Positions 34,260-37,131 of a stretch of DNA of 44,102 nt are shown in pieces; positions within the stretch are counted from its first letter, which is position 1; each line of letters opens with the position of its first letter. Under the pieces are notes generated by a model that searched no databases, had not been told where the DNA came from, and was given only the letters and a program-made list of their open reading frames with translations. Origin of the DNA: Desulfobulbaceae bacterium (GTDB taxonomy: Bacteria > Desulfobacterota > Desulfobulbia > Desulfobulbales > Desulfobulbaceae). Both the position numbers and the translations under genes were made by a program. The stretch is from contig JAFLKR010000033.1 of assembly GCA_019163135.1 (NCBI GenBank), positions 1 through 44,102 on the forward strand, written 5' to 3'.

Positions 34260-34673
34260 ATGTGGAAAAAATCACTGGCACTGGCAGCATTACAATCAGC
34301 GTGCACCTCAACTTTGGTGCAGACACTGGGTATTGAATTTACTGCCATTGGGAACGATTTTATCGAGGCGCGGATGCCGGTGGATGAACGGACGATGCAG
34401 CCCAAGGGCTTCCTGCATGGTGGAGCTTCAGCCGCCTTGGCGGAAACGTTGGGCGGCGCAGGGGCCTATCTCTCTGTGGACGAAGGCATAACCTGTGTCG
34501 GCCTGGAAATAAATGCCAACCACGTTCGACCTGCGCCACGAGGATGGGTTATCGGTCGCGCAACCTGTCTGCACAAGGGGCGCACCACACAGGTCTGGGA
34601 CATTAAGATTCGGGACGAACAGAAAAACCTGGTCTGCATTGCTCGCTTGACAGTTGCGGTGCTACAAGCCTGA
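34260..34673 (+). CDS. PaaI/YdiI-type hotdog thioesterase
   Basis: 137 aa from ATG 34260, preceded by AAAGGA. The hotdog fold is shown by GFLHGGASAALAETLGGAGAYL (residues 50-71), with His53-Gly-Gly and the catalytic-type Glu62, and by GLEINANHVRPAPRGWVIGRA. This arrangement is that of YdiI/MenI and PaaI enzymes, which hydrolyse aromatic acyl-CoA; in a menaquinone-using anaerobe, 1,4-dihydroxy-2-naphthoyl-CoA is a plausible substrate. The substrate is inference. A strong terminator follows 57 bp after the stop codon, so this is a single-gene unit. Confidence 0.88.
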   Translation: MWKKSLALAALQSACTSTLVQTLGIEFTAIGNDFIEARMPVDERTMQPKGFLHGGASAALAETLGGAGAYLSVDEGITCVGLEINANHVRPAPRGWVIGRATCLHKGRTTQVWDIKIRDEQKNLVCIARLTVAVLQA

Positions 34674-34975: not shown

Positions 34976-35335
34976 GGTCTTGCTCCTTTTTCAATATTGC
35001 GTTTCAGGTTCCAGATAAAAAATACGGAATTGATCCCACGGTAGATGTGCTCCATTTATAATATACCGAATTTTTCGAAAAGAAAGAGCTGCCGTGAGTT
35101 TTTTCCCAGGAGCTACCGACGGGAAACGGTTGGCATCCCGGATAGCAAGTCGCCCCTTTCCCCCATCATGCCGGCCGCATCTTCCCCCAAGAGCATCACT
35201 TATTTCCCCCTCAGCCAGCACCACTCCGGCAACCGGATTGCGCTTTAAAAACAGCCACATCTACGGCCGCCTGAAATTGTACCCACCCGAACTTTGTATT
35301 GATTTTTCTGATTATCGGTATATAGAAGACCGATA
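34976..35335. other. Intergenic region upstream of the tRNA, no gene
   Basis: No frame here has a good start signal. The left part should hold the promoter of the microprotein gene (TATATT/TTATAA on the minus strand near 35060). The right part has ATCGGT (35314-35319) and ACCGAT (35329-35334) as a perfect inverted repeat flanking TATATA (35319-35324), which is the best -10 candidate for the tRNA; TTGTAT at 35294 is a weak -35 with a 19-base spacer. Confidence 0.35.
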
Positions 35336-35433
35336 AGACTGGTCGAGCTGGCTGGCGCCGGCCGCGGGCTTCAACCCCGTTGGGTAACCTGTGAAAAGGA
35401 AACCGTTTGGTTCGATTCCAAAACCAGTCTCCA
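35336..35433 (+). tRNA. selC: tRNA-Sec-like gene, anticodon UCA
   Basis: The sequence folds as a selenocysteine-type tRNA. Acceptor AGACTGGT (35336-35343) pairs fully with ACCAGTCT (35423-35430), 8 bp. The D arm has 6 bp, GCTGGC/GCCGGC, and a 4-base loop TGGC. The anticodon stem GCGGG/CCCGT encloses CTTCAAC with TCA at 35371-35373. A long variable arm (35381-35405) and the T arm TTTGG-TTCGATT-CCAAA follow. The 6-bp D stem, UCA anticodon and long arm are the marks of bacterial tRNA-Sec. Odd points: no G73 (T if the acceptor has 7 bp and CCA 35431-35433 is encoded; C if 8 bp), and a variable stem broken by AA/AA. It could be a diverged or decayed copy. Confidence 0.75.
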
Positions 35434-35627
35434 TCGCAACCACTAACAATTGCTCAGGGTGTCGCCCTGTGTTCCTGTTGCCAGGTGTACACTCTCCGTA
35501 CACAAACAGTTAGCTCTCGGCCGCAAGGTCATAAAATCTTTGCCGGAAATCCATCGCGCTCCGCCACCTCTGCGCCATCGTTGAAGCGGCCAAGATGCTG
35601 CGGGGAACGGTAGGGATAATGGACCCC

Positions 35628-36545
35628 TCAGGCGAGGCCAGCCGGGTTTTCCTGGGCCGCCGCTGCCATCAGATGTTCAGCAAAGGCGGCGGCAGCTGGC
35701 GGCATTGCCCTGTTCCTGCGCCGGATCAAATAAAAAGGCCGCTCTCCGGAGATATCCTCCAGCACCAGCGCCACCAGGGTGCCCCGATACAAATCTTCGG
35801 CAATGGATCGCTTAGAGAGCATCGAAAGACCGAGACCGGCCTTGACCGCCTCCTTGACCGCCTCATTGGAACCCAGCATTGCCACCTCCTGCAGATCGGT
35901 TTCCTTATACCCCTGGGTTTCGAGTATCTGGGCGGTCACCTTTCTCGTTCCCGACCCCGGTTCCCTAAAAATAAAAGGCTGTTTGAACAGGTCCGCGACC
36001 GCGAGGGGCTGCGCTTTGATCATGGAGCTGGCCGGATGCGCCACCAGGGTGAGGGTGTCCTCGAAAAGCGGGAGCCACTCCAGTCCCTTCTCGTTCCATA
36101 TCGCCCCGACCAGACCGAGATCATATTCCCCATCCATCACTTTTTTGGCTATCGCCCGAGATCCACTGATATGCACCACGGTTTTGATGGCAGGGAATTG
36201 ATCGCGAAAACTGCTGATCAATTTCGGCAGAATATACGTCCCTGGAATGGTGCTGGCGCCGATAAAGATGTTGCCGGTGAGATTGCCGTTATACTGCTCC
36301 AGAGCCTGCAGGGTTTCCTGCTGGAGGCGCAGTATTTTAACGGCATAGCTGTACAGCAGGCGTCCCACCGGCGTGGGTTCGACCTCCCGCCCCAGGCGAT
36401 CAACCAGTTTCTGGCCAAGTTCCTCTTCGAGATTGCGAATATGATCGCTCACCGTCGGTTGCGAGAGCCGCACGGCTTCAGCAGCTTTGGTAAAACTTTT
36501 CAGCTCGACAACCTTGCAGAATACATCCAGTTTTTTTATTTCCAT
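35628..36545 (-). CDS. LysR-family regulator, selenium-metabolism-associated type
   Basis: 305 aa from ATG 36545, with AAGGTGA 6 bases upstream; longer frames to 36608 lack a ribosome binding site. Winged helix-turn-helix at residues 1-60 (LDVFCKVVELKSFTKAAEAVRLSQPTVSDHI, shown in parts), then a substrate-binding domain (about 90-295; FIGASTIPGTYILPKLI, GSGTRKV). The sequence style FCKVVELKSFTKAAEA...LGREVEPTPVG...GASTIPG is that of the LysR group annotated as selenium metabolism-associated; I base this on memory of the family. Its place next to the tRNA-Sec-like gene, 195 bp away and pointing toward it, supports the idea. The target genes are not in this window. Confidence 0.85.
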   Translation of the reverse strand: MEIKKLDVFCKVVELKSFTKAAEAVRLSQPTVSDHIRNLEEELGQKLVDRLGREVEPTPVGRLLYSYAVKILRLQQETLQALEQYNGNLTGNIFIGASTIPGTYILPKLISSFRDQFPAIKTVVHISGSRAIAKKVMDGEYDLGLVGAIWNEKGLEWLPLFEDTLTLVAHPASSMIKAQPLAVADLFKQPFIFREPGSGTRKVTAQILETQGYKETDLQEVAMLGSNEAVKEAVKAGLGLSMLSKRSIAEDLYRGTLVALVLEDISGERPFYLIRRRNRAMPPAAAAFAEHLMAAAAQENPAGLA

Positions 36546-37131
36546 TTTGGTCACCTTGCTTTTCTGGAATTTAAGAGGGATCACCAACAGCCTGATACCG
36601 CGATACACGCTGCGCTCTCACCTCGACAGGCAGAAAACCTCCAGAGGGTATCAGGCACGGATGCAGGCGAAAGCTTGCTTGGCTGAACTGCTCATTGAAG
36701 CCGCAGCATACCCGCGCAGCAAGAACAGATCCCAAAAAGTATTTATTATACCGCATCGCCATTCCGGATGGGAACAAACAATCCTGCGGGTTGCCTGCAT
36801 AACTTCTCCTTGAGGAGCAGATTATACTCTCTTGCGAGAGTTAATGCGCCCTCCCCCCGTGGCCATCGCCATCGCAACCTACTGAATAACAAGACAAATA
36901 CTTATTTTCAGGGGCGACATCCTTTTGCAACCGCAGTCCGCGATTGCCCCTATGTCCGGGAAGAAGTTGACTCCGTCCCGCAGTCGCTCGGCCGTACAAT
37001 TTTCCACAACAAGAGAAAGATAATCCTACCTTCGATTTGGCTCTTGTTGCCTTGGGCAATATCAGTAATATTATAATCTGATCTTGCCCTTTCAAATCGG
37101 TTTCTAACGATGTGGAGTGTTCGGTGATTGA
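36546..37131. other. Gene-poor region upstream of the LysR gene
   Basis: No convincing coding frame. Two small hairpins lie side by side: CTCCT-TG-AGGAG (36806-36817) and ACTCTC-TTGC-GAGAGT (36826-36841); they are 260-300 bp from the LysR start and could be regulator sites. TATAAT occurs near 37070 without a good -35. A 139-codon minus-strand frame (36841-37260) has no ribosome binding site and an unnatural composition. Confidence 0.35.

Follow-up and report, generated by a model that had tools for sequence, protein, structure and literature searches.

Which amino acid is carried by a tRNA that has the body and the UCA anticodon of a selenocysteine tRNA but U in place of G at discriminator position 73? 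The question is raised by the sole tRNA gene of the window, as the whole stretch of 44,102 nucleotides analysed here is called, which is contig 18 of a 3.64 Mb Desulfobulbaceae assembly in 217 contigs. ARAGORN places the gene at 35337-35433 (+) and calls it tRNA-SeC with anticodon TCA, and the Rfam model RF01852 (tRNA-Sec) matches 35337-35429 with 50.2 bits (E 2.6e-07 for 44 kb), which is above, though close to, the gathering cut-off of 47 bits. Against model R1 the score is 113.1 bits, with the window's own copy among the 11 rows used to build that model. The features of the locus are as follows.

35299..35304, +: -35-like hexamer TTGATT (TTG + 3, 15-17 nt, TATAnA pattern across homologues)
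35321..35326, +: -10-like hexamer TATAGA after a 16-nt spacer (same upstream pattern)
35337..35433, +: tRNA-Sec-like gene with U73, anticodon UCA and an encoded CCA, proposed as a selC*-like tRNA-Cys (ARAGORN, RF01852, R1)
35337..35343, +: acceptor stem 5' strand GACTGGT, partner 35423-35429 (ACCAGTC); paired in 11/11 homologues
35344..35344, +: C8, which blocks an eighth acceptor pair and leaves the window copy 7/5 (alignment)
35347..35362, +: D stem of 6 bp with 4-nt loop TGGC; paired in 11/11 homologues, one pair changed on both sides
35369..35375, +: anticodon loop CTTCAAC, anticodon UCA at 35371-35373 (sequence, ARAGORN, alignment)
35383..35404, +: long variable arm, aligned as a stem of 8 pairs, interrupted by an AA/AA internal loop
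35406..35422, +: T arm, stem TTTGG/CCAAA, without a bulged A (sequence, alignment)
35430..35430, +: discriminator base U73; invariant in 11/11 aligned copies and present in a 12th (D. rhabdoformis)
35455..35469, +: weak terminator-like hairpin downstream (1 found vs 0.3, sd 0.7, expected from shuffles)

Body and acceptor end of the tRNA

A sequence-only reading of this DNA had described a 6-bp D stem with a 4-base loop, a CTTCAAC anticodon loop, a long variable arm interrupted by an AA/AA internal loop, and the lack of G73. All of these are borne out; the D stem is GCTGGC/GCCGGC, the variable arm reads GGT-AA-CC/GG-AA-ACC, and U73 stands in the window copy as in its homologues. In the variable-arm stem 88.6% of alignment cells are paired and four pairs are changed on both sides. 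One of the AA/AA positions is unpaired in 7/11 homologues and the other in 2/11; judged from the alignment, the internal loop is a mild feature. In RNA folding without the alignment, the minimum free energy structure misplaces the D arm and the anticodon arm (z -2.38, with 1 of 200 shuffles equally low).

The same reading had proposed an 8-bp acceptor stem, which does not stand. GACTGGT and ACCAGTC form seven perfect pairs, and the CCA is encoded in the gene directly 3' of U73. An outward eighth pair, A35336:U35430, was rejected: it consumes U73 and breaks the CCA register, and G1 is preceded by C or T, neither of which pairs with U, in 5/12 homologues, so that the pair is not conserved. Inward extension was likewise rejected for the window copy, in which C35344 cannot pair with A. 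Seven acceptor pairs followed by U73 are the better reading.

The 3' strand of acceptor and T stem together numbers 12 bases, against 13 in canonical tRNA-Sec. The A in alignment column 87 may take U8 as its partner, giving an 8/4 branch, or U49, giving a 7/5 branch. Each form is possible in 9/11 genus copies, and U8, able to pair with the A, is present in nine of the 11. Only 7/5 can form in the window copy (C8) and in G001 (A8), and only 8/4 in G011 and G022 (C49).

With bacterial tRNA-Sec (selC, RF01852) the window gene shares the UCA anticodon, the D arm, the variable arm and a score over the cut-off; it differs in having U73 and not G73, a 12-nt and not a 13-nt acceptor/T strand, and a separate canonical selC in the same genome. 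It could nonetheless be a second true tRNA-Sec, which SerRS charges despite U73, SelA converts from Ser to Sec by way of the 6-bp D arm, and SelB delivers, the two selC genes being expressed differently. The UCA anticodon, the 6-bp D stem with 4-nt loop and the long variable arm are all selC features, and bacterial tRNA-Sec with a 12-bp 7/5 branch, the branch length of the window gene, do exist according to the available text of the Secmarker paper (PMC5330540). The 7/5 tRNA-Sec described in that text, however, have G73 and lie mostly near selA and selB, and its authors call G73 essential for tRNA-Sec and note that non-G73 predictions score low (PMC5330540); SerRS is also said to recognise G73, in the portion of a review at hand (PMC7609411). 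With U73 fixed in the genus copies as well, we consider a second tRNA-Sec rather unlikely.

Conservation, putative expression signals and the selenocysteine genes of the host

A tRNA of the window type is present in 11 of the 23 genus genomes examined, all 11 copies having been first found with Rfam; their R1 scores of 107.8-117.6 bits say little because R1 was built from the same copies. The gene is absent from 12/23 genus genomes, several of them 99-100% complete. Nine of the 11 carriers also have a higher-scoring tRNA-Sec match (69-73 bits), and the two without one are incomplete assemblies (72% and 84%). Both U73 and UCA are invariant across the 11 aligned genus copies, 96.5% of cells are paired, and six pairs are changed on both sides, a count that 33/500 shuffles reach, with 13 such cells, a count that 0/500 shuffles reach.

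An exact pattern scan of genome contigs for the UCA and GCA kinds returned 15 loci, nine of them window-type within the genus, and eight of these nine are carriers already among the 11. Six of the nine bear Desulfobulbus in their record titles, from which the genus name is taken; they include D. alkaliphilus DSM 24258, D. rhabdoformis DSM 8777 and D. elongatus DSM 2908. Outside the genus the scan found the UCA kind in a Desulfococcus-titled MAG and the GCA kind in bacterium UASB270 and two Desulfopila-titled records. A search for phage-borne copies gave 0 exact matches of the family pattern in a viral contig collection.

The sequence-only reading had allowed for either a functional variant with altered SerRS/SelA recognition or a decaying copy. 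Conservation, compensatory changes and the promoter element described below support the former as likely. Decay of a selC copy would agree with the low Rfam score, the AA/AA mismatch in the variable arm and the canonical selC elsewhere in the genome. Against this, 11/23 genus genomes carry the same tRNA with invariant U73/UCA and compensatory changes. Identity of the window tRNA with the canonical selC of its genome is 56%, as opposed to 98% with the G019 copy and 82-86% with the two further genus copies compared. Structure, promoter element and U73 are all kept, whereas relatives that are degraded (G006 C418, G093 C62, G215, G216 and G152) show, by eye, altered acceptor, arm or 3' ends. A decaying copy is scarcely credible on this evidence. 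The candidate classification as a tRNA pseudogene was also rejected, there being no loss of structure or constraint, with the cells paired as above, two-sided pair changes and the promoter element kept.

The apparently degraded copy on G006 contig 418 (1512-1607, L144) is a second window-type copy; G006 has an intact copy as well. In G023 (L050) and G028 (L057) the second tRNA-Sec matches are canonical-like and not U73, and in G023 the acceptor 5' strand mismatches the 3' strand.

Transcription of the window tRNA may be inferred from its upstream region. The pattern TTG-n3, 15-17 nt, TATAnA lies 36-38 bases upstream of the tRNA in 7/12 homologous copies, against a mean of 0.09 and a maximum of 2 in 300 rounds of dinucleotide shuffles. 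By eye a promoter-like element is seen in 10/12 copies and is absent from G011 and G022; a generic sigma-70 promoter scan raised no flag on the tRNA upstream stretch. The window tRNA is isolated, with an upstream 267-aa ORF (+) ending at 34673 and a LysR-type regulator gene downstream at 35628-36608 (-). Flanking genes vary among copies: a LysR-family neighbour is common to 5/11 and the others differ, domains having been scanned in the window only.

The genes for making and using Sec are present in the host genome, and the window tRNA is additional to them. A second, canonical tRNA-Sec on contig 25 scores 69.3 bits and has G73 followed by CCA. SelA is present (616.9 bits), and SelB has one match above the family cut-off (360.8 bits), on another contig than the window; the family search found no dedicated or second SelB (selB*) in the genome. 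The SelD gene has one in-frame TGA (...KAAG-TGA-AAKLG...) and a molybdopterin oxidoreductase (FdhA-like) gene has an in-frame TGA as well (...ARV-TGA-HSPSV...), both frames being read by eye; the latter resembles what we take to be the FdhA selenocysteine site. As to what the sequence-only reading had named as counting against itself, a second canonical selC is indeed there, selA, selB and selD were found and not missing, and the covariance score lies above the cut-off by a small amount.

Among long mechanical ORFs, UGA is the stop of 25/70 in the stretches read from this genome, of 44/88 in pieces of seven other carriers, and of 7/14 in one non-carrier genome. Such common use as a stop argues against unrestricted suppression by EF-Tu. 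It bears on the possibility of a general opal suppressor tRNA-Cys working via EF-Tu without SECIS control, for which the strict 7/5 branch imposed by C8 would make the tRNA an ordinary EF-Tu substrate. The 12-bp branch speaks for such a suppressor, as do C8 in the window copy and A8 in one other, which exclude 8/4, although C49 excludes 7/5 in two copies. Free suppression would extend many proteins, and we hold this explanation to be clearly unlikely.

Two CysRS lie above the cut-off in the genome, both matching nearly the whole family model, and no CysRS* without the anticodon-binding domain was found among the genome's CysRS matches. The second is a CysK-CysRS fusion with DALR_2 and CysS_C domains (776-codon frame, 774-aa protein, contig 2, L073:7222-9546), in which a cysteine synthase (CysK) is joined to a full CysRS in one protein; the ordinary CysRS gene is elsewhere in the genome. 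As a candidate dedicated CysRS the fusion was rejected as not specific, since a second CysRS match with a long frame (in many cases about 780-800 aa) turns up across the order, whether or not the genome has the tRNA, the fusion itself having been read in the window genome only. No dedicated synthetase for the window tRNA was found in the genome.

U73 tRNAs in the order and phylum

Within the order, 36/257 genomes match R1 at E <= 1e-6, some of the matches being canonical selC, and the order tRNAs read include three further U73 kinds, here called (a), (b) and (c). Kind (a) has a GCA (Cys) anticodon and comprises class II U73 tRNAs in seven genomes of family f12 (G148, G185, G186, G194, G188, G176 and G198; L137-L143). 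In six genomes, all but G198, the closest gene upstream on the tRNA's strand resembles HdrD (by eye) or mvhD (by similarity); in G188 its frame is broken. The tRNA lies 40-48 bases 3' of the HdrD-like gene in four genomes and 56 bases after the mvhD-like gene in G148. In G185 a further HdrD-like protein opens with an apparent helix-turn-helix segment (by eye).

Kind (b), with UCA, occurs in G093, G102, G122, G221, G222, G113, G140, G239 and G240. In the eight genomes examined it follows an hdrA-like gene at a distance of 13-44 bases and is itself followed by an mvhD-like gene, and G122 looks alike; these neighbours were assigned by a Pfam scan for the G093 proteins only and by similarity for the others. 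Several of the loci (L051-L054, L056, L058, L149-L152; G140 twice) continue with FdhA-like and HesB-like genes, the HesB match in G093 being just under the cut-off. The HdrA, MvhD and HesB families include known selenoprotein members; in the long genes beside kind (b) tRNAs no in-frame UGA was seen at five loci (G093, G113, G122 and G140 twice). The hdrA-mvhD position in G093 (L145), G216 (L146), G152 (L147) and G215 (L148) holds copies in which the acceptor, the D arm or the 3' end is altered, and the tRNA at this position seems to be decaying in some lineages.

Kind (c), which combines UCA with A1:U72 and a T stem containing a bulged A (by eye), is found in G108, G075, G080 and G042. A SelB gene lies directly 3' of the tRNA in G108, G080 and G042; this gene is a second SelB in G108 and G080, and in G042 no other was found. 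From its sequence, kind (c) fits the UCA selC* as reviewed in the accessible part of PMC7609411.

In a phylum sample of 395 genomes at least 21 have a U73 tRNA (12 UCA and 9 GCA), a lower bound in that only part of the tRNAs from the 86 matched phylum genomes was read. SelB is present in 21/21 classified U73 carriers and in 353/395 phylum genomes overall, a co-occurrence too weak to carry an argument. A further U73, UCA tRNA, with acceptor GACGGGT and loop CCTCAAC, is found in G339 and G267 (L214, L223), which belong to another phylum family.

A tree of 72 tRNAs over 97 columns places the 12 genus copies, 5 other UCA and 15 GCA U73 tRNAs on one side of a branch, and 31 canonical selC, 5 kind (b) and 4 kind (c) tRNAs on the other. 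Support for the branch is 93/78, slightly below the tool's 95/80 mark, in a tree with a long-branches-meet warning and unsettled bootstraps. The rows comprise 5/7 further UCA, 15/15 GCA (then known), 5/10 intact hdrA-linked and 4/4 bulged tRNAs, leaving out degraded copies and the later finds G339, G267, G275 and G470; the canonical rows apart from that of the window genome, 30 in number, had been excised with a constant offset, and their ends are shifted by about 2 bases. The tree gives moderate support to kinship of the window tRNA with GCA-bearing U73 tRNAs, apart from canonical selC. Pairwise identity is 59-68% to six GCA tRNAs compared and 69% to one kind (b) tRNA, so that the GCA group does not stand out by identity.

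This grouping counts against a second tRNA-Sec. Together with the separate G73 selC and the fixed U73, it tells against the tRNA-Sec identity claimed by the earlier reading, of which the tRNA-Sec-like, opal-reading, class II character is retained. It bears also on a mainly regulatory tRNA, or one for another amino acid such as Gly, which would agree with the want of a dedicated synthetase in the genome. U73 also occurs in tRNA-Gly, and its combination with G1:C72 is found outside Cys tRNAs too. The window tRNA groups with GCA (Cys) tRNAs, however, and GCA shares C35 and A36 with UCA, which leaves a regulatory role or another amino acid very unlikely.

Comparison with selC* and proposed role

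Reviews of the work of Mukai et al. 2017 describe selC* tRNA-Cys with a tRNA-Sec-like shape, U73 and a GCA or UCA anticodon, a modified 8/4 branch whose T stem carries a bulged A51a and, in the UCA subgroup, downstream selB* and a CysRS* without the anticodon-binding domain (PMC7609411, available part). CysRS* and selC* have been posited as a low-selenium route (PMC9437257, likewise in the part available). The window tRNA resembles these, as there described, in its tRNA-Sec-like body, U73 and one of the two anticodons (UCA), in having a canonical selC and SelB alongside, and in sulfate-reducing bacteria as hosts. In contrast, its T stem has no A bulge and its first pair is G1:C72, not A1:U72; its genome has no linked selB* and no CysRS* lacking the anticodon-binding domain; and the branch of the genus copies may be 8/4 or 7/5, C8 excluding 8/4 in the window copy. 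Lacking these reviewed marks, the window gene is not a strict selC* member, and we infer by analogy that it may work like one.

In Desulfotomaculum nigrificans a non-canonical, tRNA-Sec-like tRNA-Cys (GCA) is reported to insert Cys at a Sec UGA via SelB and not EF-Tu (Vargas-Rodriguez et al. 2018, per the available text of PMC11415595). It has the same tRNA-Sec-like body and differs in its GCA anticodon from the UCA of the window, a comparison made by description only. Desulfobulbus is absent by name from the 15 papers listed out of 154 matched on this subject, and from the main text of a 2026 prokaryotic selenoproteome review (PMC13188914), a weak negative.

We favour, at a probability of about 0.6, the reading that the window gene is a functional, independently transcribed selC*-like tRNA-Cys with an opal (UCA) anticodon, which would bring Cys via SelB to UGA. 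In its body (6-bp D stem, 4-nt loop, long variable arm) it would have stayed a tRNA-Sec, but G1:C72 and U73 give it an acceptor end like that of tRNA-Cys, with a 12-bp acceptor/T branch in place of a 13-bp one. U73, G1:C72 and C35-A36 together fit CysRS, and U73 does not fit SerRS. A cellular CysRS would charge the tRNA with cysteine, and the only SelB of the genome would carry the Cys-tRNA to SECIS-marked UGA codons. Cys would then enter at Sec positions, the Cys-tRNA competing with the Sec-tRNA-Sec that the canonical selC supplies, presumably as a fallback under selenium scarcity, including for selD with its own in-frame UGA. Counted against this reading are the lack of the T-stem bulge and of a linked second selB, the genus genomes that do without the gene, the use of U73 in tRNA-Gly, and the 12-bp branch, strictly 7/5 in the window copy, which could also be taken by EF-Tu.

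More tentatively, one SelB might serve both Sec-tRNA-Sec (G73) and Cys-tRNA (U73) at the same SECIS-marked UGAs, with neither a dedicated selB nor a dedicated cysS, so that UGA would be ambiguous between Sec and Cys according to selenium supply. The Cys tRNA could then act as a starter for SelD, restarting Sec synthesis after starvation; we offer this as a possibility short of an even chance.

Annotated tRNA-Sec without G73 may be Cys tRNAs, and such annotations call for caution. Since carriers are held in culture collections (D. elongatus DSM 2908, D. alkaliphilus DSM 24258 and D. rhabdoformis DSM 8777), a role in selenium shortage is directly testable. If true, nature would here offer a case of two tRNAs that work with a single elongation factor and between them decide whether UGA is read as Sec or Cys.
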